This document shows positions 3,325-25,615 of a stretch of 32,115 nt of DNA, in pieces. The notes below the pieces were generated by a model, which was not told where the DNA came from, searched no databases, and saw nothing but the letters and a program-made list of their open reading frames with translations. Made by a program: the position numbers and the translations under genes. The DNA is from Myxococcota bacterium (lineage in GTDB: Bacteria > Myxococcota_A > Polyangia > Polyangiales > Houyiibacteriaceae), in contig JANQQS010000011.1 of NCBI GenBank assembly GCA_028284955.1, forward strand, positions 1 to 32,115, read 5' to 3'. The first letter of the stretch is position 1; each line of letters starts with the position of its first letter.

Positions 3325-4611
3325 CTATCGTTGATCTATGGGAACGTAGCTCCGATCACGCTTGCCCACATAGACCTGCCGAGGGCGGGCGATTTTTTGC
3401 TCTGCGTCGGTCAACATCTCCTCCCATTGCGCCAGCCAGCCCGGTGTCCGACCAATCGCGAAAAGGACCGGAAAGATATCCATGGGGAGATTCATGCTCT
3501 GGTAAATCAGGCCCGAATAGAAATCGACGTTGGGATATAGTTTGCGTTCGGCGAAATAAGGGTCATCGAGCGCTTTGCCTTCAAGCTCAACTGCGATGTC
3601 GATCAGCGGGTTCTGTCCGAGCTCCGAGAACACATCGTAGGCGAGCGACTTAATCACCTTCGCGCGCGGGTCGTAGTTCTTGTACACGCGATGTCCAAAC
3701 CCCATCAGACGCACTTCGCCTTGCTTCACTCGCTCGAGGTACGAAGGAATATTCGACACTGAGCCGATCTCTGCGAGCATGCGCACAACCGCTTCATTCG
3801 CGCCGCCGTGCAGCGGACCGTAAAGGGCCGCGCAGGCCGCCGCGGTGGCGCTGAAGGGGTCGGCGCGCGAAGAACCCACTGCGCGCATCGAGCTCGTGGA
3901 GCAGTTTTGCTCGTGATCGGCATGGAGAATGAACAGTACGTCGAGCGCCTTTGCGACCGTCGGGTTTGGCTCGTATCGCACCTCGGTCATCTTGAACAGC
4001 ATGTTGAGCAAGTTGCCGGCGTAGCTCAGATCGTTGTCGGGGTAGATATAGGGCAAACCGCGGCGATGGCGGTACGCGTAGGCGGCAAGCGTGGGCATCT
4101 TCGCGATCAACCGATGCATCTGCAGCCTTCGACTCGCGGGGTCCGAGACCTCCTTGGCGTCTGGATAAAACGTCGATAACGCAGCCACCGTGCTGACGAG
4201 AATCCCCATCGGATGCGCGTCGTAGCGAAACGCATCGATGAACTCGCGAATATTTTCGTGCACCATGGTGTGGTGGGTGATCTGGTGCTGAAACTCGCCG
4301 AGCTCGTCCGTGTTCGGGAGCTCCCCACTGATCAGCAAATGAGCCACTTCAAGAAACGACGATTTGGCGGCCAGTTCTTCGATCGAGTACCCGCGATATT
4401 GCAGCACCCCGCGGGCGCCATCGATGAGCGTGATACGACTGGTCGTCGATGCGGTGTTTTTGAACGCAGGGTCGTACGACATCATGCCGAAGTCGTCTGA
4501 GTGCTCTTTGATCTGCCGAAGATCCATGGCGCGAACGGTGTCGTTCTGAATCGGAACTTCGTACGTCGCACCGTTTCGGTTATCAGTGATCGTGAGCGTA
4601 TTTTTGGCCAT
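3325..4611 (-). CDS. gltA: Citrate synthase (type II, GltA-like)
   Basis: This 428-residue protein condenses acetyl-CoA with oxaloacetate to citrate, the entry step of the TCA cycle, in the cytoplasm. Length and sequence match the larger proteobacterial type. The active-site residues are visible: PLHGGANE with H268, GFGHRVYKNYDPRA with H307, and YPNVDFYSG with D363. The N-terminal beta-rich segment typical of GltA is present, including GMMSYDPAF and the LQYRGYSIEEL region. The ATG at 4611 has a strong purine-rich ribosome binding site (GGGGGGAG) about 8 nt upstream. It is transcribed away from the hydrolase gene at 4774 and is followed by an inverted repeat that may terminate transcription. 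Identification is secure. Confidence 0.97.
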   Translation of the reverse strand: MAKNTLTITDNRNGATYEVPIQNDTVRAMDLRQIKEHSDDFGMMSYDPAFKNTASTTSRITLIDGARGVLQYRGYSIEELAAKSSFLEVAHLLISGELPNTDELGEFQHQITHHTMVHENIREFIDAFRYDAHPMGILVSTVAALSTFYPDAKEVSDPASRRLQMHRLIAKMPTLAAYAYRHRRGLPYIYPDNDLSYAGNLLNMLFKMTEVRYEPNPTVAKALDVLFILHADHEQNCSTSSMRAVGSSRADPFSATAAACAALYGPLHGGANEAVVRMLAEIGSVSNIPSYLERVKQGEVRLMGFGHRVYKNYDPRAKVIKSLAYDVFSELGQNPLIDIAVELEGKALDDPYFAERKLYPNVDFYSGLIYQSMNLPMDIFPVLFAIGRTPGWLAQWEEMLTDAEQKIARPRQVYVGKRDRSYVPIDQR

Positions 4612-4773: not shown

Positions 4774-5799
4774 ATGCCGCCTCGGGAGCCTGCAGTCCCT
4801 CCCCTCCTTGCAGCCGCCCCGGGGCGTGCGTGTTGGCCTTCGCTTCTTGCGGGCGTTGCCCGGTTTCGATTCTTGGGCCAAAGCCTACCCATGCAGCTTG
4901 CCCACTCGCTCGTCGCGGCCCCCGGCGCCGACCCACAGAAGTACATGTTGTTCTTGCACGGGCTCCTAGGAACTCGCTCGAACTGGAGAAGCATCGCGCG
5001 GCAGTTCGTACAGCAGCGTCCGGGCTGGGGGGCAGTTCTTGTCGACCTGAGGGAGCACGGCGAATCACGAGGCTTCGACGAGCCACATACCGTCGCCGCC
5101 GCGGCGCAGGACGTCGAAACGCTTGCACGGTCTCTGAATCGGCCGGTCTCTGGCGCGCTGGGACACAGTTTCGGAGGCAAGGTCGCGTTGGCGTGGGCAA
5201 CGCGCACTCCGAACTGCGAGCTCTTATGGCTGATCGACTCAGCTCCAGGAGCTTCGGCAATACAATCATCGGAAACAGGACGACCTTCCGAGCAGGCCGA
5301 TGCGTCCACGGTCACCGCCGACGTTCTTCGGATCATCGAGGTTCTAGGCGCCCTGTCCAGGTCTTCTACCCATCAGGGAGGGTTTGAAAGCCGCGAGGCG
5401 TTCATCGAACAGGTGAGCGCACAAGGCATTTCCCGAGGCGTCGCGCAGTGGCTAGCCATGAACTTGGTGCGCGAGGCGAACGCGTTTCGCTTTGGGCCGA
5501 ATATGGCTGCAATCGACGCGCTCTTTGCCGATCATCGCGAGGTCGACCTTTGGCCTGAACTCGAGCGCATGCGCGACGTCGACGTACATCTGGTGATTGG
5601 CGAAGCGTCGACCGCCTTCAATTCAGAGGACCGATCCAAGGCGGCTCGCGTCGCGGCGTCGCGTTCGAACGTTTCCATTCACCGGATTGCACGGGCAGGC
5701 CACTGGATCCACGTCGACGCTCCCGAGACGCTACTAGACACCCTCGTCGAACACATACCGCTCCTGTCAAAAAAAAGTGACAAACAAGAAACATACTGA
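4774..5799 (+). CDS. Alpha/beta hydrolase, YbfF-like esterase family
   Basis: From the ATG at 4774 the protein has 341 residues. Visible motifs are FLHGLLGTRSNWR (about 60-72) with the oxyanion region, VDLREHGES (90-98), GHSFGG with nucleophile S132, and a C-terminal AGHWIHVDAPE that supplies the catalytic histidine. These match small acyl-ester or thioester hydrolases of the YbfF type. An AGAAGG ribosome binding site sits 5 nt before the 4774 start. The family usually begins near the ATG at 4891 (MQLAHS), so the first 39 residues could be an extension or non-coding. The stop codon lies inside the first TetR-type palindrome, and the lipid operon begins 114 nt later in the same direction, so it may supply or trim acyl chains for that pathway. 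That link is inference. Confidence 0.85.
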   Translation: MPPREPAVPPLLAAAPGRACWPSLLAGVARFRFLGQSLPMQLAHSLVAAPGADPQKYMLFLHGLLGTRSNWRSIARQFVQQRPGWGAVLVDLREHGESRGFDEPHTVAAAAQDVETLARSLNRPVSGALGHSFGGKVALAWATRTPNCELLWLIDSAPGASAIQSSETGRPSEQADASTVTADVLRIIEVLGALSRSSTHQGGFESREAFIEQVSAQGISRGVAQWLAMNLVREANAFRFGPNMAAIDALFADHREVDLWPELERMRDVDVHLVIGEASTAFNSEDRSKAARVAASRSNVSIHRIARAGHWIHVDAPETLLDTLVEHIPLLSKKSDKQETY

Positions 5800-5808
5800 C
5801 ACGTCAGT
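5795..5808. promoter_or_regulatory. Palindromic operator 1 (TetR-type)
   Basis: The 14-bp site ACTGACACGTCAGT has perfect 6-bp half-sites (ACTGAC/GTCAGT) around a 2-nt centre and overlaps the stop codon of the upstream hydrolase. The shared sequence with operator 2 continues with CTA. Size and symmetry suit a TetR dimer, and a TetR gene ends the downstream operon. A possible -35 (CTGACA, 5796-5801) lies inside it, 17 nt from a weak -10 (TAGAAG, 5819-5824). Confidence 0.75.
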
Positions 5809-5837
5809 CTAATTGGGCTAGAAGCTGCTCGGACAAA

Positions 5838-5851
5838 ACTGACACGTCAGT
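5838..5851. promoter_or_regulatory. Palindromic operator 2 (TetR-type)
   Basis: This is an exact second copy of the 17-nt sequence ACTGACACGTCAGTCTA. It starts 43 bp after operator 1, about four helical turns, so two dimers would sit on the same face of the DNA. It lies 62 nt before the GTG start of the first operon gene. It is probably bound by the TetR-family protein encoded at 15902-16540. Confidence 0.75.
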
Positions 5852-5913
5852 CTAGTTTGTGGAGCCGGCAGAATCGTCTCCCAAGCGAGCTGGCGCTTTC
5901 GGAGGAACGAATC

Positions 5914-6576
5914 GTGAATTCGGCTGCTTTTTTTCGCATCGAAGGAGCGCTGACGAAGAAACCTACGTGGGCTGCGGCGGCATGGATTGCCGCAAACGCC
6001 CAAGGCGTGGGTGAACGTATGGCGCGCATGGGCAACGTGGCGCTCGCGGCTCCGTTTGCGCTCTCGGGAGAACTCCGTAGCGGGGACACCGCGACCCGGC
6101 TGGTCTGGAGCGGCCTTCGCGGCATGAGCGAGGACCGGGTCACCGTGTTGGCTCGAGAATACTACGATGAGTATTTGAAAGAGTCGGTCACGGAGCTCGG
6201 AGAAGAGCTCGTAGACCAGGCGCGTGTACGCAAGCAGCGGCTGGTTTTGATCAGCGACAACGTTGACCTCGTGGTCGAGCCGCTTGCTGAACGACTCGGA
6301 GCCGATGATTTGATTTGCAATCGGCTCGAGTTTCGAAATCAGAAAGCCACCGGTCGCCTGCTCGATCCGGTGGTCGGAGCCACCGTGGCGGGGCAGTGGA
6401 TTCGCCAGTTCGCTCGGGAGTGTCAAGTCGACCTGGATGCCTCGTCCGCGTACGGAGCCTCCGCCGCCGACAGCTTGCTCCTTTCATCCATCGGGCGCCC
6501 CTGCGCAGTGAACCCGAATCGACAACTGCGGCGCATCGCAAGCGCCCACGATTGGCCCGTCGTTCAAGGATCATAG
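5914..6576 (+). CDS. HAD-like protein, probable pseudo-phosphatase
   Basis: The GTG at 5914 has an excellent GGAGGA ribosome binding site, so it is preferred over a TTG at 5857; the product has 220 residues. The fold resembles the HAD-IB (SerB/CicA-like) family. Hydrophobic strands, a LISDN motif II and a C-terminal GRPCAVNPNRQLRRIA are visible, the last matching the AVNPDRRLR tail of those proteins. Motif I, normally FFDxDGTL, reads FFRIEGAL, so both aspartates including the nucleophile are replaced. Motif IV (normally DxxxD) reads YGASAADS. Catalysis by the usual aspartyl-phosphate route looks impossible, so a structural, binding or regulatory role is likely. It is the first gene of the lipid operon, 2 nt before the next gene. 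Related HAD-IB proteins commonly sit beside acyltransferases, which fits the context. Confidence 0.8.
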   Translation: MNSAAFFRIEGALTKKPTWAAAAWIAANAQGVGERMARMGNVALAAPFALSGELRSGDTATRLVWSGLRGMSEDRVTVLAREYYDEYLKESVTELGEELVDQARVRKQRLVLISDNVDLVVEPLAERLGADDLICNRLEFRNQKATGRLLDPVVGATVAGQWIRQFARECQVDLDASSAYGASAADSLLLSSIGRPCAVNPNRQLRRIASAHDWPVVQGS

Positions 6577-6578
6577 CC

Positions 6579-8207
6579 ATGAAAATCGATATTCCCTACC
6601 CGCTCACGTCACGACACATTCATCTTCCGAAGTCGATCCCCGATACGTTTTCCGGCCGTCATCTCCTGGTCACGGGCACCACTGGCTTTCTCGGTAAAGT
6701 ATGGCTCGCGATGGTGCTTGATCGCCTGCCCGAGGTCGAACGGATAACGCTGCTCGCGCGAGGGAAAAAGGGCTTGAGTCCTCGAGATCGCTTCGAAGAA
6801 GACTATCGCTCGTCGCCCGTGTTCCGGCCTCTCCGCGAGCGGCTGGGCATGCGCTTGCACGACTTGATGGCCCGCAAAGTGCGCGTCATCGAGGCTTCCC
6901 TGGACCAGCCGTGGTGCGGCCTGGGTGAAGACCGGGCTCGGCGTCTGGCGAAAGACGTGGATGTGGTGGTTCATTTCGCCGGCCTGACTGACTTCGAACC
7001 AGACCCCACGCACGCGATCGAAGCCAACATCGACGGCTCGTCCTACATTGCCGACCTCGCGGCCTGCACGCCGCAGCGCCGATTGGTGCACGTATCGACC
7101 ACCTACGTGGCGGGCGCGGTTTCTGGAGAAATCGAGGAAACCATCACCCCCGGAGTTTCTCCTCACGGAGTGGCTTTTGATCCGGCCGAGGAACTCGCAA
7201 GCCTGAAGGCGGCCTTGCACGGCACGGATACCAAAAAGCAACGAACGAGCATCGCGATGCAGCGCGCGCGCGACCTCGGCTGGCCAAATATCTACACCTA
7301 TACGAAGGGGCTTGCCGAACATTTGATCGAATCGCGCAACGACGTGCGAACCACCACGGTGCGACCCGCCATTGTCGAATGCGCGCGAAGCTATCCGTTT
7401 ATCGGCTGGAACGAAGGCATCAACACCGCGGGCCCAATCGTTTGGCTGCTCTCCACGAGCTTTCAGCGCTTTCCATCGAAGGCGAAAAACCACTTCGATG
7501 TCGTGCCCGTAGACACGGTGGCGCGAGCCATGATTCTCGTGGTGGCGCGCGCCCTCTGCGACCGCGCGAAAAGCGTGTATCACGTCGCATCAAGCCACGC
7601 GAATCCGTTCTTCTTTGGCCGCGCGGTCGAGCTCACAGGCCTCGCTTATCGCACGCGCTATGCACAATCGGACCGCGCTTATGAACGCCATGTGTTGCGA
7701 AGACTCGATGCAACGACGGTGAACGCCGACGCGCCGCAAGTGTTTGGACACCGAAGGCTTCGGCATTTCGTGCGAACTGCACGCGATGTTTTGCGGAACA
7801 TGGACATTGCCGACGCGCTTCCTCCTCGGATGTACACGCGGGTTGGGGATCAGCTCGAAGAAACGCGTCGCTCCCTCTCGAATAAGTGTCGACAAACCGA
7901 GCGCAAGCTTTCGCAAGTGGACGAGATGCTACGGCAGTATCGACCGTTCATCCACGACTACGACTACGTATTTCGAACCGACCATTTGCAGCAAGCGAAC
8001 CAAGAGCTCACGGAAGCCGACCGACGCAACTTTGCGTTTGACGTCGAGAGCATCGATTGGCTGGACTACTGGATGAACGTTGAAGTTCCCGGGCTCGAAA
8101 CATGGAGCATTCCGCTCTTGCGCGGCGAGAAAGTGCCGCGCGACGAGCCCCTCGCAAAGCCTCCGCGGGTATTCACCCCGCTCGCGTCCACCCCGATGGG
8201 CGCCTGA
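6579..8207 (+). CDS. SDR-family fatty acyl reductase-like protein (NAD-binding 4)
   Basis: The protein has 542 residues from the ATG at 6579. It has an extended-SDR Rossmann fold with the nucleotide loop GTTGFLGK (33-40), the VHFAGLTDF strand (about 131-139), HVSTTYVAG (171-179) and the catalytic YTYTK (Y239, K243). The C-terminal third (RQYRPFIHDYDYVF onward) resembles the tail of fatty acyl-CoA reductases. Such enzymes use NADPH to reduce an acyl-CoA or acyl-ACP thioester to an aldehyde or alcohol. With the ACP and acyl ligase downstream, it is likely the reductive step of the pathway. The upstream stop is only 2 nt away, so translation is probably coupled. The exact product, aldehyde or alcohol, cannot be told from sequence. 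Confidence 0.85.
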   Translation: MKIDIPYPLTSRHIHLPKSIPDTFSGRHLLVTGTTGFLGKVWLAMVLDRLPEVERITLLARGKKGLSPRDRFEEDYRSSPVFRPLRERLGMRLHDLMARKVRVIEASLDQPWCGLGEDRARRLAKDVDVVVHFAGLTDFEPDPTHAIEANIDGSSYIADLAACTPQRRLVHVSTTYVAGAVSGEIEETITPGVSPHGVAFDPAEELASLKAALHGTDTKKQRTSIAMQRARDLGWPNIYTYTKGLAEHLIESRNDVRTTTVRPAIVECARSYPFIGWNEGINTAGPIVWLLSTSFQRFPSKAKNHFDVVPVDTVARAMILVVARALCDRAKSVYHVASSHANPFFFGRAVELTGLAYRTRYAQSDRAYERHVLRRLDATTVNADAPQVFGHRRLRHFVRTARDVLRNMDIADALPPRMYTRVGDQLEETRRSLSNKCRQTERKLSQVDEMLRQYRPFIHDYDYVFRTDHLQQANQELTEADRRNFAFDVESIDWLDYWMNVEVPGLETWSIPLLRGEKVPRDEPLAKPPRVFTPLASTPMGA

Positions 8208-8255
8208 GCGCGCGGCCGTCTGAAGAGAGCTGTCCATGAGTATACGAGGCGTCAC

Positions 8256-9500
8256 ATGAGCACTATGTTCATCACCGGGGCAACGGGCTTTCTTGGTTCG
8301 TACGTGCTCGACGAGTTGCTTCGCGCGACAGACCATTCGTTCGCGCTCCTCACCCGAGCAAGCAACCGGACGGAAGCGATCGACAAACTTTGGCGCGCCA
8401 TGCAACTGCATTTGGATGCGGACCAGTTTCGCTCCGTGTTGCCTCGAATCGAGTTCGTACGGGGCGATCTCACGGCGCCGAATATCGGATTGAGCGACGC
8501 CGACCAGGAGCGACTTTCTCACTCCATGGAATCGGTTCTCCATATCGCGGCTTCGTTGAACCGAAAGAGCGAGACCGCCTGCCTCAACCACAACCTTCGC
8601 GGCACGCTCGGGGTGATTCGTCTCGCACAGCGGGCGCACCAACATCACGGGCTTCGACGCTTCAGCTACGTATCAACCGTGGCCGTGGCGGGGCAGCGCG
8701 ACCGCGAAGTGGTGACCGAAGACGAAGCCATCGACTGGATGCGCCGCGACTACGATCCGTATGGGCGGACCAAGAAGTTTTGCGAGCACATGGTTCATGA
8801 GCTTCTGCCCGACGTTCCGCGGACCGTCTTTCGTCCATCCATCGTGATGGGCGACTCTCGATTTCCGGAAACCACGCAGTTCGATATGGTCCGCGCGTTT
8901 TGCGCCCTGGTTGATTTGCCCGTCGTTCCCATGAGCGGGGATACTCGGCTTGATATCGTCAACGCCGACTGGGTCGGTTACGCCATCGCAACGCTGCACG
9001 CCTCCAAACAGCCGCGTCATGTGACGTATCACCTCAGCTCGGGGGTCTCTTCTCCTAGCGCAGCCGAAATCGCGCACGCCATCGCCCACGATCGAGGAAG
9101 ACGAACGCCGACCTTCGTTCCTGCGCTGGAGCGGGGCTTTGGAGCCGCGGTTCGCGGGGTCGCCAGTTTTCCCACGCGAAACATCGCATCAAGAGTCGCG
9201 ACGCTGTTCAAAGTGTTCTGGCCCTACATCACCTACGACACGGTGTTTGACCACGAACGCGTGGTATCCGAGATTGGGCGCGCTCCTACGCGATTTTCGG
9301 AATACTGCGCGGGACTGTACGCCTTCTCCAAGCAGGTCAACTTTCGCTATCCCCACAAGCCTTGGCTCGATGGCGATTCAATAGGGGACCCTGCAAAAAC
9401 CGCCGTGGCTTCCAATGTCCAAGGGAGCAGTGCCCAAGCGAGCAGTGCCCAAGCGAGCGGCACCCGAGCGAACTCCATGAATCGAGGGTTGCGCACATGA
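8256..9500 (+). CDS. Second extended-SDR oxidoreductase
   Basis: This 414-residue protein shows GATGFLGSY (8-16) for nucleotide binding, SYVSTVAVAG (137-146) and an active-site YGRTK (Y169, K173). It belongs to the same broad NAD-binding-4/extended SDR group as the preceding gene but is shorter and lacks its C-terminal reductase tail. It could reduce an acyl thioester or keto group, or act as an epimerase or dehydrogenase on the head group. The C-terminal 35 or so residues are a Ser/Ala/Gln-rich linker encoded by a 15-bp tandem repeat (9426-9470) and are probably disordered. Its stop overlaps the next start as ATGA. Confidence 0.85.
   Translation: MSTMFITGATGFLGSYVLDELLRATDHSFALLTRASNRTEAIDKLWRAMQLHLDADQFRSVLPRIEFVRGDLTAPNIGLSDADQERLSHSMESVLHIAASLNRKSETACLNHNLRGTLGVIRLAQRAHQHHGLRRFSYVSTVAVAGQRDREVVTEDEAIDWMRRDYDPYGRTKKFCEHMVHELLPDVPRTVFRPSIVMGDSRFPETTQFDMVRAFCALVDLPVVPMSGDTRLDIVNADWVGYAIATLHASKQPRHVTYHLSSGVSSPSAAEIAHAIAHDRGRRTPTFVPALERGFGAAVRGVASFPTRNIASRVATLFKVFWPYITYDTVFDHERVVSEIGRAPTRFSEYCAGLYAFSKQVNFRYPHKPWLDGDSIGDPAKTAVASNVQGSSAQASSAQASGTRANSMNRGLRT
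9426..9470 (+). repeat. 15-bp tandem repeat inside the second SDR gene
   Basis: The unit AGCAGTGCCCAAGCG occurs twice exactly (9426-9440, 9441-9455) and once with changes (9456-9470). Because 15 is a multiple of three, copy number changes keep the frame. It encodes SSAQA-type units in the C-terminal linker. Confidence 0.8.
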
Positions 9501-11146
9501 CCAGCGAAGCGCCGCGGGTGCGGGTGTGGAGGCCTCAAACGGACCCTTCGAACGCGCACAACGCACAGAAACTGGCATCGCTCAACCCGGAGTCCTTGGT
9601 TTCCGGCCAGGGTTCCATCGAGCCTCCCGCGACGATACGTCGCTTGTTTTCCGGCGTCGTGCATACCGCGTGGGATCGAGTGAAAGAGCATGTCGACGCG
9701 GACCGCGCGCTGCAGCACGCCATGGGGCTCATGATCGAGTTGGCGGCTCATCGGTACGCCATGGGACAAAGCGAATCATGGTCGCCCGGGCAACCGCTCA
9801 AACTTCTGCTCGTCGGGTACAGCGGAACGCGGAATACCGGCGCAGACGTTCGCGTCGAAGAAATGATTCGCCAGTTCCGCCATCTTTTTGGCGACGAGCA
9901 CGTCGACCTCTCGATCATCACCCTCGGCCCTGAGCTCACCCGCGGCTACTTTCGTTCCGTCAAACAGCTGCATTGTCCCAAGCTCTTCCCGCGCTTTTTG
10001 TCTGATGCGGTTCGACAGCAGCATGGCGTGATCGCCTGCGAAGGGTCCATGTTCAAAAGCAAGTTTGCCAACGCTTTGTCCACCATGATGGTGGGCGGCA
10101 TTGGGCTTGCTCTCGCCGAACACAAGTTCGCCATCGGCTACGGCGGCGAAGCCGGCCAGATGGATCCTTCGCTCCGCGATATGGTGGCGCGTTATTGTCG
10201 CGACGCGTTCATTATCACTCGAAACGAAACGTCTCGCGACATTCTTTCAGACCTCGGAGTCGCCTCTCAACCCGGCACCGATACAGCGTGGACGTTTGAC
10301 CCTGCACCCGATGACGTCGGCGCGAATATTTTGCGATCCGCAGGATGGGATGGTGCTACCCCGATTCTTACGCTGTGCCCCATCAATCCTTTTTGGTGGC
10401 CGGTTAAGCCCAACGTACCTCGCGCCGCGCTGCATTACGCCAGCGGCATGTACGCCGATTCACACTACGGATCGGTCTATTTTCATCGTCATGGCGCCGA
10501 CGTAGAAGACAATCAGGAGCGCTATATCCGCGCCATCGCGAACGCGGTACGGCGCTTTCGAGACAAGCACCGTGTGTTTCCGGTGATGATCGGCAGCGAA
10601 CAGCTCGACCGCAAAGCATGCGAAGCGCTTCGTGATGCGCTCGGAGACGATGCGCTTGGAAAGCGTGCGCCGGTGATCGTTTCGGATGAATACGACATGT
10701 ACGAGATGGTGAGCGTCATGCGTCAGGCCACCTGGATGGTTTCCTCTCGCTACCACGCCATCGTAACGAGCATGCCGGCTGGAGTGGCCTCCGCGGGAAT
10801 CACCATGGACGAGCGCATTCGGAACCTGATGCGCGATCGCGGACAGCCACATCTCGCATTGGGCGTCGACGATCCGGATCTCGAGCAGCGGTTGCACGAT
10901 ACGTTGGAGATTCTGGTACGCGATACGCAGGACATCCGGCAAGGGATCGACCGCTGCGTATACAAAAACCTCGAACGCATGGGTCACATGGGCATGGAAC
11001 TCGTCGACCACGTTCGGTCTCACTATCCCGACTTTCCATTTCGACGTGAATTCGGCCGGCACGGCGACCCTTGGGCCCACTTGCCCACGCTGCCGCCCAA
11101 AGTCCGCGCCCTGGTTGAACGTGTCCGGAGCTCCGATGGCGACTGA
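9497..11146 (+). CDS. Polysaccharide pyruvyl transferase-like protein
   Basis: The protein has 549 residues from the ATG at 9497, which overlaps the previous stop by 4 nt. The core begins with LLLVGYSGTRNTGADVR (103-119), like the VGYYGxxNxGDE N-terminal strand of the PS_pyruv_trans (PF04230, CsaB/WcaK) family. Later it has a SSRYHAIVTSMPAGV segment equivalent to the family's SxRLHA motif. Known members transfer pyruvate from phosphoenolpyruvate to sugars of polysaccharides. About 100 extra N-terminal residues precede the core. A member in an acyl-activation operon is unusual. It might pyruvylate the head group of a glycolipid, or may have been adapted to another glycosyltransferase-like reaction, since the fold is GT-B-like. 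Function is inference; family membership is fairly sure. Confidence 0.8.
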   Translation: MTSEAPRVRVWRPQTDPSNAHNAQKLASLNPESLVSGQGSIEPPATIRRLFSGVVHTAWDRVKEHVDADRALQHAMGLMIELAAHRYAMGQSESWSPGQPLKLLLVGYSGTRNTGADVRVEEMIRQFRHLFGDEHVDLSIITLGPELTRGYFRSVKQLHCPKLFPRFLSDAVRQQHGVIACEGSMFKSKFANALSTMMVGGIGLALAEHKFAIGYGGEAGQMDPSLRDMVARYCRDAFIITRNETSRDILSDLGVASQPGTDTAWTFDPAPDDVGANILRSAGWDGATPILTLCPINPFWWPVKPNVPRAALHYASGMYADSHYGSVYFHRHGADVEDNQERYIRAIANAVRRFRDKHRVFPVMIGSEQLDRKACEALRDALGDDALGKRAPVIVSDEYDMYEMVSVMRQATWMVSSRYHAIVTSMPAGVASAGITMDERIRNLMRDRGQPHLALGVDDPDLEQRLHDTLEILVRDTQDIRQGIDRCVYKNLERMGHMGMELVDHVRSHYPDFPFRREFGRHGDPWAHLPTLPPKVRALVERVRSSDGD

Positions 11147-12044
11147 GTTCCCAGTAGAACCAGGGAACCCCACAAAATCAGGGAACCCGGCACAGCCAGA
11201 ACGTTGCATGGAGCCTGAGCGCCTGTACGCCGGGGAAGCGCTCAGCTGGCATCTGAACGAAGACACGTTGGAAGTTGAGCTCCACCGGAAGCCGTGCAAC
11301 GAAATCGGCACGACGGCGCTGCGTGAACTGGAAGCCCTCGCCGACGTGGTTCGGCAGGGCGCGCATGGAGCACGCGCGTTGCTCTGGCACAGCAGCGTAA
11401 CGCGCGGGTTCAGCGCCGGCGCAGACCTGCAAGAGCTCTACCACGGTTTGATGGACGGAGGGCTTCCGCCGGACGGGCTGGCCGCTGACGCACGCAAGTT
11501 GGCCGAGGTTCGCTCGTTCCTGGACCGGATTCATGACGCGTTCAATGCGTTCGACCAAGCGCCGTTGGTCACCGTAGGCGCAGTCCGCGGAGTTTGCTTC
11601 GGTGGCGGTTTCGAGCTCGCATTGACCTGCGATGTACTCGTCGCAGAGCAGAACGCCCGGTTCGCTTTTCCAGAGCTTCGCCTCGGCTTGGTGCCTGGCT
11701 TTGGCGGCGTACCTCGTTTGCGGCGCGACGTCGGCAACGCCGCGATTCGCGACCTCTTGCTCACTGGCCGGAGCATCCGCGCGAGCCGTGCGCATGCGCT
11801 CGGCCTCGTGTCTCAGGTCGTGGGCAACGGCGAAGCGCTGGGTATTGCGCGCATGGTGGCTCAGCAAGCGGCTCGTTTTGATGCGCAGACCACCTGCAAA
11901 GCAAAACGATTTATCAAGACACTTCCCGCCAGCGAACTCCGCCAAGAAAAAGATCTGTTCATCGAACTACTGGCATCTCCCACGGTGGCGCGAGCACTGA
12001 AAAAATTCGTGGAAAGCAAAGACCTCAGGCCCTACCTGCCTTGA
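11136..12044 (+). CDS. Enoyl-CoA hydratase/isomerase family protein (crotonase)
   Basis: The ATG at 11136 overlaps the previous gene by 11 nt and gives 302 residues. An internal ATG at 11208 would drop a Pro/Asn-rich 24-residue leader. The crotonase core is clear: FSAGADLQEL (92-101) forms the oxyanion hole, GGGFELALTCD carries E160, and FPELRLGLVPGFGG carries E180. Both glutamates of enoyl-CoA hydratase are kept, so hydration of a trans-2-enoyl thioester or double-bond isomerisation is possible. In this operon it probably modifies the acyl chain before or after loading on the neighbouring ACP. Confidence 0.9.
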   Translation: MATEFPVEPGNPTKSGNPAQPERCMEPERLYAGEALSWHLNEDTLEVELHRKPCNEIGTTALRELEALADVVRQGAHGARALLWHSSVTRGFSAGADLQELYHGLMDGGLPPDGLAADARKLAEVRSFLDRIHDAFNAFDQAPLVTVGAVRGVCFGGGFELALTCDVLVAEQNARFAFPELRLGLVPGFGGVPRLRRDVGNAAIRDLLLTGRSIRASRAHALGLVSQVVGNGEALGIARMVAQQAARFDAQTTCKAKRFIKTLPASELRQEKDLFIELLASPTVARALKKFVESKDLRPYLP

Positions 12045-12092
12045 ATATCGCAAGCGCACCGCGCACCTCAACGCCGCATCTACGAGGCCCTC

Positions 12093-12332
12093 ATGACTCA
12101 GAACGACATCACGACCAAGCTGATTTCCCTCGCCGCCGAGCGCTTCCAGCAGGAGGCTTCAACGCTATCTGCCGCAGACGATCTTTTCGACCGACTCGGC
12201 ATCGACAGCTATCAGGCGCTTGAATTGCTAAGCGATGTAGAAAACGCGTTCAACGTCGAAGTTCCTGATTACGAACTGCAAGGGGTCCATACCTTCGCCG
12301 CGCTCGCCGAGGTGATCGGGAGACGACTGTGA
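12093..12332 (+). CDS. Acyl carrier protein
   Basis: This 79-residue acidic protein has the phosphopantetheine attachment motif LGIDSYQALELL, with S39 as the modified serine. The four-helix ACP pattern (DDLFDRLG, ENAFNVEVPD, TFAALAEVI) is complete. It carries acyl chains as thioesters between the operon enzymes. Its stop overlaps the GTG start of the ligase gene by 3 nt, suggesting tight co-expression with the enzyme that probably loads it. Confidence 0.95.
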   Translation: MTQNDITTKLISLAAERFQQEASTLSAADDLFDRLGIDSYQALELLSDVENAFNVEVPDYELQGVHTFAALAEVIGRRL

Positions 12333-14113
12333 TCACTCCGGACCGATACGCGAGCTTGGGCGAGCTGCTGCGTGACGCGCTGATTCAATTCAAGTCCGAT
12401 GTCGCGCTGATCGAGCTCAACCGAAAACGTCAAAGCGCGAGCTACACATATCTCGAGTTCAAACGAACTGCCGATCGACTCGCTAGCGCGCTCGAACACG
12501 CGGGGGTCAACGCCGGCTCTCGCGTCGCAATCATCATGAGCAACCAATCGAAATGGTTGCTCAGCGCGTACTCGATCCTGTTTCGCGGTGGAGTCATCGT
12601 TCCCATCGACTACAAGCTCTCACCAGAGGAGCAACGCGCACTGCTGCAGCACGCAACCCCCAACGTGCTCATCACCGAGCATGCGTCGTGGCGAGGGCTA
12701 GCGGGAAAAACGGCTGTGCCCACGACGTTTGTGTCCGAGGTTCCAGAGGGAGCAGAGCTCGCGGGCGCGCACCGCTGGGAGGACGCGAACGGCCCCAAAC
12801 CACCTACATTCGTGCCACGGTCTCGATCGGATGTGGCCACGCTGGTGTATTCGTCGGGCACGGGTGGCGCGCCCAAAGGATGCATGCTGACGCACCAAAA
12901 CTACCTCGAACAGTATCGCATGCTGGTCGAGCTTTTTCCGCTCGAACAGGGGGACCGCTATTTCTCGATTCTCCCTACCAACCACGCCATCGACTTCATG
13001 TGCGGCTTTATCGTCCCGCTCGCTTGTGGCGCGACGGTGGTACATCAACGGACGCTTCGACCCGAGTTCATCAATCATACGTTGAAGAACCAGCGGATTA
13101 CCCACATGGCAGTGGTTCCGTTGATTCTTGAAGCGTTCGAGCGGCGCATTCAGGAAACGCTGCAGGAACGCCCCGAGCTGATTCAGGCCGCGTTTGGTCT
13201 TGTCGGCGCGCTCAACGCCGCGCTGACCCTCGACAAGCCGCGTCGTGCACTAAGCCGACGTTTGCTCAAACCAGTCCACGATGCCTTCGGCGGACATCTG
13301 AAGCTCCTCTTCTGCGGAGGAGCGTTCGTCGACGCCAAACGCGCACAGTATTTCTACGACCTGGGGCTGCCCGTGGTGATTGGCTACGGCTTGACCGAAG
13401 CGTGCACGGTGCTGACGGTTAACGACCTCAATCCTTTCCATGGCGACACGGTAGGGCGCCCGCTGCGGGGCGTGCAGATTGAGATTCGGAACGAAGATCC
13501 GGAGACTCGAGTGGGCGAAGTGTGGGCCAAGGGCCCAACCGTCATGCAGGGTTATTTTCGAGATGAAGATCAGACCGCAGAGGTGTTGGTCGATGGTTGG
13601 CTAAAAACTGGAGACCTCGGAACCATCGATGCGGCAGGGCATCTCCGGTTGGTCGGGCGACGAAAAAACATGATCGTCACCGCGGGCGGAAAGAACATCT
13701 ATCCCGAAGATATCGAAAGCGCGTTCGAGGACCTTCCCTGCGAAGAGCTGGCCGTCTTCGCCAGCGGATATATCTGGCCCGGAGAAGCACTGGCAGAAGA
13801 ACATCTCGTGGTCGCAGTGCGGGACGCGACGAGTGAGTTTCCTCGCATACTCGCCACGAAAAACCGCCGCCTCCCGGAACACAAGCGCGTGGCCGGCTAC
13901 ATCGCATACGACGAAGCGTTCCCCCGCACGGCGTCTATGAAGGTGAAACGAAACGAGCTCGCCATCCGACTGCGATCTTTGGATCGAAATCTGGTCCGAA
14001 GCGTGGCACCGGTTCATTCTTCTGCGAGCCTTCCGACGGGGACGCGCGAGCACCCGACGTCGGTACTTGAAACAGGAACGGTTTTCAAAAAACGTCCGCG
14101 GTGGTCATCATGA
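12329..14113 (+). CDS. AMP-forming acyl-CoA/acyl-ACP ligase
   Basis: The 594-residue protein starts with GTG at 12329. It is an ANL-superfamily adenylating enzyme that activates a carboxylic acid with ATP and passes it to CoA or, more likely here, to the adjacent ACP. Visible motifs are the phosphate loop YSSGTGGAPKG (174-184), GYGLTEA (352-358), GWLKTGD (423-429), GRRKNMIVTAGGKNIYP (443-459) and the C-terminal catalytic lysine region TASMKVK (K538 or K540). All core motifs are intact. Length and motif spelling suit long-chain fatty acid substrates. It overlaps the next gene by 4 nt (ATGA). Confidence 0.92.
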   Translation: MITPDRYASLGELLRDALIQFKSDVALIELNRKRQSASYTYLEFKRTADRLASALEHAGVNAGSRVAIIMSNQSKWLLSAYSILFRGGVIVPIDYKLSPEEQRALLQHATPNVLITEHASWRGLAGKTAVPTTFVSEVPEGAELAGAHRWEDANGPKPPTFVPRSRSDVATLVYSSGTGGAPKGCMLTHQNYLEQYRMLVELFPLEQGDRYFSILPTNHAIDFMCGFIVPLACGATVVHQRTLRPEFINHTLKNQRITHMAVVPLILEAFERRIQETLQERPELIQAAFGLVGALNAALTLDKPRRALSRRLLKPVHDAFGGHLKLLFCGGAFVDAKRAQYFYDLGLPVVIGYGLTEACTVLTVNDLNPFHGDTVGRPLRGVQIEIRNEDPETRVGEVWAKGPTVMQGYFRDEDQTAEVLVDGWLKTGDLGTIDAAGHLRLVGRRKNMIVTAGGKNIYPEDIESAFEDLPCEELAVFASGYIWPGEALAEEHLVVAVRDATSEFPRILATKNRRLPEHKRVAGYIAYDEAFPRTASMKVKRNELAIRLRSLDRNLVRSVAPVHSSASLPTGTREHPTSVLETGTVFKKRPRWSS

Positions 14114-15060
14114 ACGCCTTGATCGCTGATGCGGACGCGGTTTCGCAACGCCCTCCTTCTTCGCCGAAACACTATTTTGCCATCATCAATGGAGCAGCCG
14201 GCGGCGGCCGATGCGGCTCGCGGGCAGAACCCGCCCTCAAACAGCTATCCGAACACGGAATTCGCTCCGACGTGTGCTTCACAGAAGGGCCCGGGCACGC
14301 GAGCGAACTGGCGCGGCGAGCCTATCAAAGCGGGGTTCGCCACTTCCTGGCGGCAGGAGGCGACGGCACCGTGTTTGAAGTGGTCAACGGACTATTTCCG
14401 GATGCCGCCAGCGACCCCCCGACCCTCGGCATCTTGCCGCTGGGTACCGGAAACTCGTTCCTCCGCGACTTCGGGCCCGCCACGGAACACCTCGCCCAAT
14501 CGGCATTGACCGAGGGGGAGGCACGGCCGATCGACGTGATCCGCGCGAAACATCGTGACGGCACGATGCATTACATCAATCTCTTAGGACTAGGGTTCAC
14601 CGCGGAAGTCGGCGCGCTCGCCAACCGACTAAAGGCCTTGAGCACGACCGGCTACGTGGCCGCGGTCCTGGCACGACTGGCGGGTCTTCGCTATCCGCTC
14701 GATCCCATTCGTCTCGATGACCAAATCGAGGACCATCGAGACAACACCATGCTTGTGTTCTCCAACAGCCGGTACACCGGCGGCGCAATGATGATGGCGC
14801 CCCACGCAGACCTTCAAGATGGGCGGCTTGACGTCATTCGGGTGAACCGAATGTCTCGATTCGAGTTGCTGACCGCGTTTCCCAAAATCTTTCGTGGAAC
14901 TCACGTACGTCACCCGAAGATCGAAGAGCACACCGCGGCACGAGTCGAATTTCTCAATCCGCGAGAGCAAGACGTGATGGTCGACGGCGAAGTTCTTCGC
15001 CTTTGCTTGCTTTCTCTCGAAGTGCTTCCTCGCGCCCTCAAGGTGATGACCCCATGCTAG
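14110..15060 (+). CDS. Diacylglycerol/sphingoid kinase-family lipid kinase
   Basis: The ATG at 14110 overlaps the ligase stop and gives 316 residues; a GTG at 14101 is possible but less likely. The DAGK/LCB5 catalytic domain shows INGAAGGG (26-33), the nucleotide motif GGDGT (83-87), and LPLGTGNSFLRD, like the LPxGTxNDFAR motif. The C-terminal beta-sandwich is present and ends with DVMVDGEV, like the family's DGE motif. Such enzymes phosphorylate diacylglycerol, long-chain bases or related lipid alcohols. An alcohol or monoacylglycerol made earlier in the operon is a plausible substrate, with the product passed to the acyltransferase encoded next. Confidence 0.92.
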   Translation: MNALIADADAVSQRPPSSPKHYFAIINGAAGGGRCGSRAEPALKQLSEHGIRSDVCFTEGPGHASELARRAYQSGVRHFLAAGGDGTVFEVVNGLFPDAASDPPTLGILPLGTGNSFLRDFGPATEHLAQSALTEGEARPIDVIRAKHRDGTMHYINLLGLGFTAEVGALANRLKALSTTGYVAAVLARLAGLRYPLDPIRLDDQIEDHRDNTMLVFSNSRYTGGAMMMAPHADLQDGRLDVIRVNRMSRFELLTAFPKIFRGTHVRHPKIEEHTAARVEFLNPREQDVMVDGEVLRLCLLSLEVLPRALKVMTPC

Positions 15061-15905
15061 GCACCACGGACAATCGATCGATGACGAACCGGCCGGCACA
15101 TCAAGAGCTGCAGGCACGCGGAACACAGCGCGAGGCGCCTACACGCGACAACCCAACGATTCGAGATCGTCTCGTGAGCACGGTGCTTTGGGGCGCCGGA
15201 GTGGGTTGGCTCGTGCCGACGACCAGCGCCATGACCGTTCTCCATCACTTGGTGGGCGCAAAACGAATCGAGCCCGTCAGCCGGCTGTATTGCCGCGTCC
15301 AGACCGCGCTTACCGGTTCGCGCTGGCGAGCCGTCGTGCACCCCGACGTATGCCCAGACACGCCGTATATCTTCGCGCAAAATCACACCAACCATTTCGA
15401 TCACGTGGCGATGTACAACGCGACGCCCCATTTCAAGCAAGGGCTGGAGCTCGAATCGCACTTCCGGTACCCGTTCTACGGCTGGTTCATGAAAAGTCGG
15501 GGAACCATCCCCGTTCCTTCGAATAAGGAGCAGCGTACTCGGCAGATATTCGCGGCGATGCGTCGAGAGCTCAGCCAAGGCACAAGCATTCTCGCGTTTC
15601 CAGAAGGAACGCGCACCCTCGACGGCAAGCTCGGACCTTTTCGCAAAGGCATCTTTCATATCGCGCATCGACTCAAGGTTTCGATTGCGCCGACCACGGT
15701 GACCGGGATGTACGACATGATGCACAAAGGCTCGCTCGTGATTCGCCCTGGAAACACGCTTACGGTGTACATCGACAAGCCAGTGGACATGTCGAACGTC
15801 CACAAAGACGACATTCCGAAGGTCATGGAAGACGTCCATCGCACGATGAGCCGGCGACTCGAAGAGCACCGACAGCAGAAGCTCAAACGGGAGCATCCAC
15901 GATGA
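15054..15905 (+). CDS. PlsC-type 1-acylglycerol-3-phosphate acyltransferase
   Basis: The chosen ATG at 15054 overlaps the kinase gene by 7 nt and gives 283 residues; an ATG at 15081 is an alternative. The glycerolipid acyltransferase motifs are present: NHTNHFD (110-116) with the catalytic HX4D, RGTIPVP near 149-155 as block II, and FPEGTRT (182-188) as block III. A hydrophobic stretch near 42-66 may hold it to the membrane. It transfers acyl groups from CoA or ACP to a lysophospholipid. It is the final enzyme of the operon and likely assembles the lipid from the phosphorylated product of the preceding kinase. Confidence 0.92.
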   Translation: MLGTTDNRSMTNRPAHQELQARGTQREAPTRDNPTIRDRLVSTVLWGAGVGWLVPTTSAMTVLHHLVGAKRIEPVSRLYCRVQTALTGSRWRAVVHPDVCPDTPYIFAQNHTNHFDHVAMYNATPHFKQGLELESHFRYPFYGWFMKSRGTIPVPSNKEQRTRQIFAAMRRELSQGTSILAFPEGTRTLDGKLGPFRKGIFHIAHRLKVSIAPTTVTGMYDMMHKGSLVIRPGNTLTVYIDKPVDMSNVHKDDIPKVMEDVHRTMSRRLEEHRQQKLKREHPR

Positions 15906-16540
15906 GCGTCGATGCCACCGATCGTCGAGCGACGCGAGCCCAAATTAAGCGAGAAAGCCGACGGGCAAATATTCTGCGGGCCGCGCTGCACGAATTCGGC
16001 CATCGCGGCTACCATCAAACACACATCAGCGACATCATCGAAGCAGCAAACATCGCGCGGGGCACGTTCTACCTCTACTTTGAGAGCAAGAGCGCGATCT
16101 TTCTCGAACTTCTAGACGGCCTTCTCGAGCGCCTGGGCGACAGCATCGTAGGCGTAGACACGCGCGACGGAGCGCCTCCAGTGCAAGGACAGCTGGTGCA
16201 AACCGTACGCCGAATCATGGAGACGGTCGTCGAAAACCGTTTGCTTACGACGATCATCATCCGCGAAGCCGTCGGGCTCGACGAAGACGTAGATCGAAAA
16301 CTTCGCGAGTTTTACAAACGGCTACTTATCTACATTCGGTCATCGCTCGAAGAAGGTCAGCAGCTTGGCGTGCTTCGTGATTTCGATACCGAGGTGGCTG
16401 CGTTTTGCGTCCTCGGCACGATCAAGCAGTTCATGGAGCAGCTTGTGATGCACGACTACGGCGAAGTCGACGTCGACCGAATGGCCCTCGCAGTGCTCGA
16501 TTTCAATCTGCGCGGCGTGCTCGATCCCGTGGTCGGGTAG
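15902..16540 (+). CDS. TetR/AcrR-family transcriptional regulator
   Basis: This 212-residue protein has an N-terminal helix-turn-helix (about 40-60, THISDIIEAANIARGTFYLYF) in classical TetR spelling, followed by an alpha-helical ligand-binding and dimer domain. Its ATG overlaps the acyltransferase stop (ATGA), so it is made with the enzymes it probably controls. The two identical palindromes at 5795 and 5838 before the first operon gene are its likely binding sites, giving negative autoregulation. The ligand may be an acyl-CoA or acyl-ACP, as for other lipid-linked TetR proteins. That is inference. Confidence 0.93.
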   Translation: MSVDATDRRATRAQIKRESRRANILRAALHEFGHRGYHQTHISDIIEAANIARGTFYLYFESKSAIFLELLDGLLERLGDSIVGVDTRDGAPPVQGQLVQTVRRIMETVVENRLLTTIIIREAVGLDEDVDRKLREFYKRLLIYIRSSLEEGQQLGVLRDFDTEVAAFCVLGTIKQFMEQLVMHDYGEVDVDRMALAVLDFNLRGVLDPVVG

Positions 16541-16855: not shown

Positions 16856-21535
<4,680 letters not shown>

Positions 21536-24450: not shown

Positions 24451-25500
24451 TCAGGATGCCAATTCCTGACGCACTTTGTCGACCACTTGGCCAACAATCT
24501 TCCGCTGTTCGGACACCACAAAAAGATGCTCTTTGTTGCGCAAATGGCTGACCCGCCCCACCCGCTTTCCGCTGGGATTGAAGATGCCGATTTGAGCGCC
24601 CACATAGCGTTTGAAATCGATATCCACCACGCCGACCTCGCCGCGCGTGCTTAGCAGCTGCTCAAGCTCTTCGCGGGCGATGTATCCCTCATTGCTGAAC
24701 GAAACCAAGATATGCTTGCACCGAAGCGCCTGAATTACCTGCTCGAAGGCCTCCAGGATTCTTCGTTTGGAGTTGAAATCGCTCTTGTGGTCGCGGCACT
24801 CGATTCGCTTGCAGGCGACTCCATAGTGCTCCGGTGCATCCCAACGTACGAGAGTTTCCCACACGTGGTAGTTGCCGATGTAGCGATGCTGGTTGTAGGG
24901 CGGGTCCAGATACGCGAGGTCAACCTCCGTGCTCGCCGACGTCGACGCATCTCCTTGCATCGCGCGACCCGAGCCAGGCACGAGCTCAGGAACCCGAAGC
25001 TCGAGATCGTTGTGGCTGCGCTGCGCCCACTGCTTAAGATACGCCATCTGCACGCCGGTCGTGGAGTCGACCCGATCCGCCGCTTCCATGAGCGATGTCA
25101 GAGCGATCGCTTCGAGCACTGGGTCGAGATCGAGATTCGCGATCGCGTCGCGAATGGCATCGATGCGCGCCCCGTTCTTGGGCTGAAAGAAGCGCGCGCG
25201 TTCGCAAAACGTCTCGGTGAAATATCCCGGGCGAGGCGGTACTCGGGCCAGATCGGCAATCAAGCGCTCTGCCGGGCCTCGATAAACCTCGGCATCGGCT
25301 TCCACGTAGCAGCGAGCCAACATGACCGGGAACGTCAGCTGGTCGTTCGCAATCACAAACTGGCCCATCTGCTTGAGCGCGTGCCCAACGCGGGAAGTGC
25401 CCGAAAACAAGTCCAGCACCGAGCGCACATCTGGAATCGCGCCAACCGCAGCACGAATATGGGGAATCAGCGTCCGTTTGGAACCGAGATACTTGATCAT
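24451..25500 (-). CDS. D12-class DNA adenine (N6) methyltransferase
   Basis: This 349-residue enzyme transfers a methyl group from S-adenosylmethionine to adenine N6 in a specific DNA site. Visible are the N-terminal LGSKRTLIPHI, the SAM-binding motif LDLFSGTSRVG (29-39), ANDQ (51-54) and the catalytic DPPY (199-202). Length and order fit the Dam/D12 (alpha) class. No restriction endonuclease is beside it, so it appears to be an orphan methylase, possibly for regulation or protection. It is the first gene of a three-gene minus-strand operon and is divergent from the metal transporter. Confidence 0.92.
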   Translation of the reverse strand: MIKYLGSKRTLIPHIRAAVGAIPDVRSVLDLFSGTSRVGHALKQMGQFVIANDQLTFPVMLARCYVEADAEVYRGPAERLIADLARVPPRPGYFTETFCERARFFQPKNGARIDAIRDAIANLDLDPVLEAIALTSLMEAADRVDSTTGVQMAYLKQWAQRSHNDLELRVPELVPGSGRAMQGDASTSASTEVDLAYLDPPYNQHRYIGNYHVWETLVRWDAPEHYGVACKRIECRDHKSDFNSKRRILEAFEQVIQALRCKHILVSFSNEGYIAREELEQLLSTRGEVGVVDIDFKRYVGAQIGIFNPSGKRVGRVSHLRNKEHLFVVSEQRKIVGQVVDKVRQELAS

Positions 25501-25615
25501 GCCAATCGTGTGGTCACGCGGGCAGCGAAAGTAGCCCGTCGCGGCCGACGCCGGCTATTCTGTGGGCTCGCGCCCGGATTGCAAATCGCCCGCGCGTGCA
25601 CCAAGAAAAAAGCGT
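25501..25615. promoter_or_regulatory. Divergent promoter region, methylase / metal transporter
   Basis: These 115 nt lie between divergent starts and must hold both promoters. No metal-regulator palindrome was recognised. An A-rich stretch (AAGAAAAAAG) at about 25603-25612 may serve as the ribosome binding site for the transporter. Confidence 0.35.

Follow-up and report, generated by a model that had tools for sequence, protein, structure and literature searches.

A run of ten plus-strand genes, called as open reading frames at positions 5914–16540 of the analysed window (the whole 32,115-nt stretch of DNA), forms a real operon that very probably converts fatty acids into a lipid based on fatty alcohol. 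With about even confidence, we propose a self-regulated pathway whose product is such a lipid of the membrane, probably of the alkyl type. It would operate through discrete proteins related to ElbB and ElbD, in genomes where ElbD itself is absent.

The layout was re-derived from the ends and starts of the open reading frames, and the ten co-directional genes, gaps of at most 48 nt and six overlaps described in an earlier sequence-only reading were recovered. From gene 1 to gene 10, the junctions measure +2, +48, −4, −11, +48, −4, −4, −7 and −4 nt, such that six of the nine overlap and the widest gap is 48 nt, with the PPT/ECH and DAGK/PlsC overlaps hinging on the chosen start codons. That reading had placed the operon start at 5795, which is the first base of operator box 1; the first gene begins with a GTG codon at 5914, just 3' of a GGAGG. 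Its domain names agreed with the profile matches, whose scores were above the cut-offs, and motif counts indicated that the catalytic motifs are intact in all operon proteins except the HAD protein (Table 1).

Table 1. Genes and operator boxes of the operon (gathering or model cut-offs in brackets where compared)
Feature	Position	Strand	Basis
Operator box 1, ACTGACACGTCAGTCTA, inverted repeat ACTGAC-NN-GTCAGT	5795..5811	+	exact copy; conserved upstream of orthologous operons
Operator box 2, also ACTGACACGTCAGTCTA	5838..5854	+	exact copy
Gene 1, HAD-IB-like protein, catalytically degenerate, ElbB relative	5914..6576	+	PF12710 58.7 bits; alignment with orthologues and ElbB
Gene 2, fatty acyl reductase (FAR), NAD_binding_4 and Sterile domains	6579..8207	+	PF07993 169 bits (20.1), PF03015 38.7 bits (35.4)
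Gene 3, second extended SDR (SDR2), thioester-reductase type	8256..9500	+	PF07993 143 bits
Gene 4, polysaccharide-pyruvyl-transferase family protein (PPT), GT-B fold	9497..11146	+	PF04230 31.5 bits (25.3)
Gene 5, crotonase/enoyl-CoA hydratase-like protein (ECH)	11136..12044	+	PF00378 118.9 bits; both catalytic Glu kept
Gene 6, acyl carrier protein (ACP), phosphopantetheine site IDS (IDSY)	12093..12332	+	PF00550 43.6 bits
Gene 7, AMP-forming acyl ligase (ACS)	12329..14113	+	PF00501 240 bits; tree; start overlaps ACP stop
Gene 8, YegS/BmrU-type lipid kinase (DAGK)	14110..15060	+	TIGR00147 143.8 bits (118.65); GGDGT
Gene 9, PlsC-type acyltransferase	15054..15905	+	PF01553 72.6 bits; NHTNHFD, FPEGTRT
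Gene 10, TetR regulator	15902..16540	+	PF00440 57.8 bits; presence tracks operator presence

The gene order is fixed across genomes, with 0 deviations in 80 further loci from Myxococcota, Acidobacteriota and other groups. No additional conserved flanking genes were found, as no flanking family occurred in more than 7 of the 80 loci, and together these two observations exclude chance as the cause of the arrangement. An eleventh gene encoding a second acyl ligase (ACS2) is present in most of these loci and was not found in this window. The best-conserved parts are the two thioester reductases, PPT and the pseudo-HAD that is fused to FAR in Acidobacteriota; the lipid kinase is retained in 48 of 55 testable loci, with GGDGT in 20 of 20 sequences, and PlsC, found in most Myxococcota clusters, is frequently missing (30 of 50 testable loci). 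The neighbours thus stay together in related genomes, no homologous operon with a characterised product turned up, and a search covering open-access papers found no description of the cluster.

The operon also carries its own switch. The palindrome ACTGACNNGTCAGT lies upstream of all 17 clusters with a TetR gene and of none of the 20 without one, and the exact operator was found in 20 of 26 operon-bearing relatives versus 1 of 31 operon-lacking relatives. In the 6.07-Mb assembly, its 15-base core TGACACGTCAGTCTA has two exact occurrences, both at this operon, and an operator reserved for a single operon in this way points to a pathway of its own. Conservation establishes the identity of the operator and backs the earlier claim that the operon has its own TetR regulator, which would bind there under the control of a putative ligand. 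The TetR protein is nearest to fatty-acid regulators (66 bits to the FadR model, below its cut-off of 200), and it would repress through the two ACTGACNNGTCAGT boxes and probably be released by an acyl thioester.

The best PDB match of FAR was 7eoz, with 254 bits over both domains and agreement by fold. This structure is rice DPW, an acyl-ACP reductase giving fatty alcohol. This plant fatty acyl-ACP reductase combines NAD_binding_4 and Sterile domains like the operon FAR, but the two share 22% identity in the fold search and DPW has no HAD partner. In the FAR tree, the cluster FARs, the fused FARs and the N-terminal FAR domain of ElbD group together (SH-aLRT 96), away from the other FAR-like proteins of Myxococcota; this tree does not order the fused, split and ElbD clades within the group and so does not show which form is ancestral. 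The best PDB match of SDR2 was the MxaA R domain (121 bits).

The HAD protein of this operon has FFRIEG in place of DxDG[TS], a motif counted in 0 of 18 cluster HAD sequences. Every aligned member, as well as the 26 fused ones, has Arg at the position of the nucleophilic Asp, and the cluster motif reads FFRxEG or YWRVEG as against the FYDVDGT type of ElbB, which keeps the catalytic Asp. An ordinary HAD phosphatase was therefore ruled out; the family named in the sequence-only reading holds. A conserved dead HAD joined to a reductase is a specific oddity.

The ether-lipid operon elb of Myxococcus xanthus, which Lorenzen et al. are said to have reported in 2014, has in common with the present operon a HAD protein, a FAR, an AMP ligase, an ACP, a PlsC-type acyltransferase and an SDR. 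It consists of ElbA–E (review PMC9131029). Kinship detectable by homology comprises FAR and ACS with ElbD and the HAD protein with ElbB: ElbD proteins match the cluster FAR profile at 375–510 bits and the ACS profile mostly at about 270–395 bits, where the ACS tree does not place the cluster ACS as sister to that of ElbD, and ElbB proteins match the cluster HAD profile at 176–209 bits. This bears out the earlier remark that the operon recalls ElbD activities as separate proteins. ElbD is one protein of ∼1600 aa, whereas FAR, ACS, ACP and the acyltransferase are four proteins here, and separate genes were found in every unfused cluster examined, the only fusions being HAD–FAR in Acidobacteriota and one PPT–ACS2 frame (locus L097). 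ElbC is a Lar_N protein (PF09861, lactate racemase domain) and was rejected as the counterpart of PPT, and ElbE is an epimerase-type SDR (PF01370); equivalents of both were absent from the operon genes, SDR2 being a NAD_binding_4 protein. Conversely, PPT, the crotonase, the lipid kinase, TetR and the operator have no counterpart in elb. The parts of the account of sponge-symbiont NRPS-like clusters considered here (PMC9426513) place domains of the ElbD type in Acidobacteriota as well as in other phyla, with ether lipids as presumed products; the clusters in those parts centre on fused ElbD, in contrast to the separate genes of the operon, and the present cluster does not appear there.

The two systems almost never co-occur. 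Among 237 Myxococcota genomes, the cluster was found in 37 and ElbD in 88, with both in a single genome (G079) where 13.7 were expected (Fisher p 1.5e-7, the genomes being related and not independent). Within one family (f16), 8 genomes had the cluster and 5 had ElbD, and in 217 Acidobacteriota genomes the counts were 6 and 24, with no genome carrying both in either set. ElbD was likewise found in 0 of 31 further cluster genomes, including four Nannocystis. The exclusion could reflect ancestry, given the relatedness of the genomes. As the same genes occur in the same order with their own switch in bacteria of several phyla, nearly always without ElbD, the cluster may represent another, so far undescribed route to fatty-alcohol-based lipids.

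Judging from protein families and gene coupling, the ligase would load a free fatty acid onto the dedicated ACP and the crotonase would trim the acyl-ACP. FAR, with its catalytically dead HAD partner, is predicted to convert the thioester to a fatty alcohol, and SDR2 may make or consume the aldehyde. PlsC would then acylate and the YegS-type kinase phosphorylate a glycerol-type intermediate, while PPT may modify the head group or supply the missing coupling step. The operon contains no known ether-forming enzyme. AGPS (alkyl-DHAP synthase) was rejected elsewhere in the genome, where glycolate/lactate oxidase or D-2-hydroxyglutarate dehydrogenase outscored AGPS for the only two FAD-oxidase_C proteins, which leaves the ether bond without an assigned enzyme. 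The conserved block thus upholds the earlier call of a lipid operon, but not that of a 'full' assembly line. As for the crotonase, a role as DSF synthase (RpfF-like) was rejected, with PRK08788 scoring below many generic crotonase models.

PPT belongs to the family of the PF04230 pyruvyltransferases CsaB, WcaK and ChtnH, with a GT-B-like model (pLDDT 85) and an R-x-H pair, but it forms its own subfamily, and a sequence search against solved structures gave no match. It stands in a lipid context, not a polysaccharide one. A possible though rather unlikely reading is that PPT adds a PEP-derived pyruvate ketal to a fatty-alcohol or hydroxylated lipid diol to give an acidic head group, the elb similarity reflecting a shared fatty-alcohol supply only. 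This would fit the PF04230 score above its cut-off, the high conservation of PPT with its R-x-H pair invariant in 20 sequences, the lack of any glycosyltransferase or sugar gene in the conserved block of the 80 loci, and ChtnH, a PPT-family enzyme of chitinimine biosynthesis whose proposed substrate is a diol on a fatty acyl chain (PMC13291983). On the other hand, PPT scored 58.5 bits (6.8e-16) against the CsaB equivalog TIGR03609, missing the cut-off of 213.1, and its best 50 structure matches were 2-epimerases, with UDP-GlcNAc 2-epimerases closest, and GT-B glycosyltransferases; PEP use by PPT is therefore not established. The 50 included no pyruvyltransferase, which is not evidence against the family assignment. 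As a long shot, the cluster would make an ether- or ketal-linked lipid through new chemistry that dispenses with AGPS, ElbD and PlsA/PlsR: PPT would use PEP to put a three-carbon unit on the FAR alcohol, the inactive HAD domain would position acyl-ACP for FAR, and the resulting pyruvyl ketal or enol-ether lipid would then undergo reduction and phosphorylation. If true, bacteria of several phyla would hold a lipid class not known before.

It is unlikely that the pathway stops at the fatty alcohol or its ester, the product being a secreted alcohol, an aldehyde signal or a wax ester formed by PlsC. A Sterile-type FAR and a second thioester reductase would yield fatty alcohol, and the PlsC-type acyltransferase of most Myxococcota clusters would suit this outcome, but the conserved lipid kinase is needless for a wax pathway and this genome gave no WS/DGAT match in a search without a positive control, the control genomes being silent. 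A role in the salvage or remodelling of the usual membrane phospholipids, by recycling fatty acids through ACP, PlsC and the lipid kinase while the reductases detoxify aldehydes, is quite improbable: ACS, ACP, PlsC and the lipid kinase would suffice and TetR is nearest fatty-acid regulators, but the best-conserved members are the reductases, PPT and pseudo-HAD rather than the often absent PlsC, and the dedicated operator suggests a discrete pathway.

The cluster bears on how bacteria make alkyl ether lipids beyond the AGPS and PlsA/PlsR routes. To our knowledge, published screens of soil and marine bacteria for ElbD counted the fused enzyme alone. If the cluster is a functional counterpart, surveys of lipid producers may overlook a route carried by many genomes of Myxococcota and Acidobacteriota; this extends to surveys for brGDGT sources in Acidobacteriota. 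The cluster provides a minimal conserved gene set with a one-operon TetR switch open to de-repression, and its cultured hosts include Nannocystis and Paraliomyxa, where the product can be sought directly.

The ten reading frames of the operon were present as the sequence-only reading had claimed, and the gene names proposed there matched the Pfam and NCBIfam assignments. The junctions, in gene order, measured +2, +48, -4, -11, +48, -4, -4, -7 and -4 nt, so that six of the nine overlap as stated. The position also held except for its start: 5795 marks an operator box and the first gene begins with a GTG codon at 5914, which was the sole positional correction.

Genes of the operon and of its flanks in the window
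Feature	Position	Strand	Remark
Citrate synthase	3325-4611	-	
Alpha/beta-hydrolase-like	4774-5799	+	YbfF-like by eye
HAD-like	5914-6576	+	GTG start behind GGAGG
Fatty acyl reductase (FAR)	6579-8207	+	Pfam/NCBIfam
Thioester-reductase-type SDR (SDR2)	8256-9500	+	Pfam/NCBIfam
Pyruvyltransferase family (PPT)	9497-11146	+	Pfam/NCBIfam
Crotonase (ECH)	11136-12044	+	Pfam/NCBIfam
ACP	12093-12332	+	Pfam/NCBIfam
AMP-forming acyl ligase (ACS)	12329-14113	+	Pfam/NCBIfam
Lipid kinase (DAGK)	14110-15060	+	Pfam/NCBIfam
PlsC	15054-15905	+	Pfam/NCBIfam
TetR	15902-16540	+	Pfam/NCBIfam
Avs2	16856-21535	-	1559 aa
D12-class adenine DNA methyltransferase	24451-25500	-	
Possible metal transporter fusion	25562-27478	+	

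Of the 57 relatives searched with PPT, 26 gave a single strong match, and genome G053 gave two fragments. The genes around PPT kept the window's arrangement in families f1 and f3 and largely did so in the other families. In a wider survey, relatives were encoded on 350 contigs, the best 80 of which were taken as loci; these came from Myxococcota and Acidobacteriota, from one MAG of Planctomycetota and from some MAGs with loose titles. The gene order, which had been put forward for comparison, was unbroken in 80/80 of these best loci: HAD-FAR-SDR2-PPT-(ACS2)-ECH-ACP-ACS-DAGK-(PlsC)-(TetR). Counted over those of the 80 loci whose contig reaches far enough, HAD was found in 54/57, FAR in 59/62, SDR2 in 66/70, ACS2 in 47/67, ECH in 59/64, ACP in 56/62, ACS in 50/56, DAGK in 48/55, PlsC in 30/50 and TetR in 16/50, and no flanking gene recurred in more than seven loci. 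ACS2, a second AMP ligase, is absent from the window's family and found in most others. The block near PPT was incomplete in some genomes (e.g. L086, L090 and L193), and ACP was inverted in L033 and L052.

In L123 and L085, the place of ACS2 between PPT and crotonase is taken by reading frames resembling, by eye, an amidohydrolase and a protein of the D-threonine aldolase/alanine racemase type. The cluster was also present in three MAG records, L070, L077 and L105, whose titles name Rhodobacterales, Klebsiella pneumoniae and Acidimicrobiia; they are probably mis-titled or mis-binned, and in the FAR tree L077 and L105 grouped with sequences of other phyla. Citrate synthase also lies upstream of the operon in L038, L040 and L050, which makes this flank partly conserved in close relatives. 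The hydrolase-like gene, which ends at the first operator, is outside the conserved block.

The operator ACTGACACGTCAGTCTA is present twice, at 5795 and 5838, and its 15-base core occurs exactly only at these sites in the 6.07-Mb assembly, the next best sites having two mismatches. In a first set of 18 operons, 17 had ACTGACNNGTCAGT-type sites in the 250 nt that precede the first gene, and the 18th had a one-base variant. Among the best 80 loci, a perfect upstream site accompanied 17/17 clusters with a TetR gene versus 0/20 without one, the latter counted only where downstream DNA was present (p = 6e-11, indicative as the sequences are related). Among the 57 relatives, the exact 17-mer was found in 20/26 operon-bearing versus 1/31 operon-lacking genomes (p = 3e-9), mostly on the operon's own contig, and controls gave no matches. 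This distribution supports a dedicated TetR that would govern this operon alone. Exact copies outside a recognised operon were found at G041:C399:13001-15449 and at G055:C26:127864, the latter in a genome without the cluster; they are possibly second targets or sites of other TetR paralogues.

Parts of the operon are homologous to ElbB and ElbD of the myxobacterial elb ether-lipid system, in which ElbD is one fused multidomain enzyme. Across 237 Myxococcota genomes, FAR profile matches were bimodal, with stand-alone frames of ~500-1250 aa (about 490-860 bits) and frames of ~1450-2250 aa (about 330-515 bits). The long proteins sampled were FAR-ACS-(ACP)-PlsC, and Pfam confirmed the ElbD architecture with ACP in one. 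The suspected relatedness of the reductase to ElbD was borne out by the FAR tree, where split FAR (support 97), acidobacterial fused FAR (100) and ElbD FAR (99) formed three clades, their order unresolved, inside one group (96). In the ACS tree, cluster ACS including Acidobacteriota formed one clade (100) and ElbD ACS another (99).

The two types nearly exclude each other. In the 237 Myxococcota, cluster-type FAR was found in 37 genomes, ElbD type in 88 and both in 1, versus 13.7 expected (p 1.5e-7, uncorrected for kinship of the genomes); family f16 had 8, 5 and 0, respectively. Another 31 genomes with the cluster, four of them from Nannocystis (N. exedens, N. pusilla, N. poenicansa and N. 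bainbridge), had no ElbD. The 217 Acidobacteriota had 6 cluster, 24 ElbD and 0 both, numbers too small for significance alone.

The HAD-like protein is degenerate: the nucleophilic Asp of HAD enzymes is replaced by Arg in every member (motif [FVY][FLIVW]R-x-[ED]-G), whereas ElbB, which scored 176-209 bits against the operon HAD profile in myxobacteria, keeps FYDVDGT and YSDSxSD-type motifs. In 26 acidobacterial-type loci a shortened HAD is joined to the FAR N-terminus; one such fusion was modelled (pLDDT 78.5), with rice DPW (7eoz) as best fold match. From the replaced Asp, the fusion and the intact ElbB motifs, we infer a partner or regulator rather than a catalyst.

FAR has NAD_binding_4 and Sterile domains, both spanned by the DPW match. 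The nearest matches of SDR2 were thioester reductase domains, e.g. of MxaA, and those of the lipid kinase were BmrU/DgkB. PPT belongs to PF04230, its R418 and H420 are invariant, and it gave a confident GT-B-like model; lipid-chain action has been proposed for enzymes of this family in chitinimine and megapolipeptin biosynthesis (PMC13291983). AGPS was not identified in this genome, and no description of the cluster was found in the literature covered, mainly open-access papers. Judging from the enzyme families, the pathway would load acyl chains onto ACP and reduce them to fatty alcohol, with acylation and phosphorylation as further steps. The most economical reading is that the operon is a discrete counterpart of the elb pathway under its own regulation.

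The window also encodes the anti-phage protein Avs2 (PADLOC PDLC02164, 1545 bits; no match in a Pfam search), whose gene converges on that of TetR and has the D12-class methyltransferase gene nearby. The possible metal transporter fusion combines a ZIP-like N-terminal part (below the Pfam cut-off), an ArsP_1 permease and a His-rich C-terminus.
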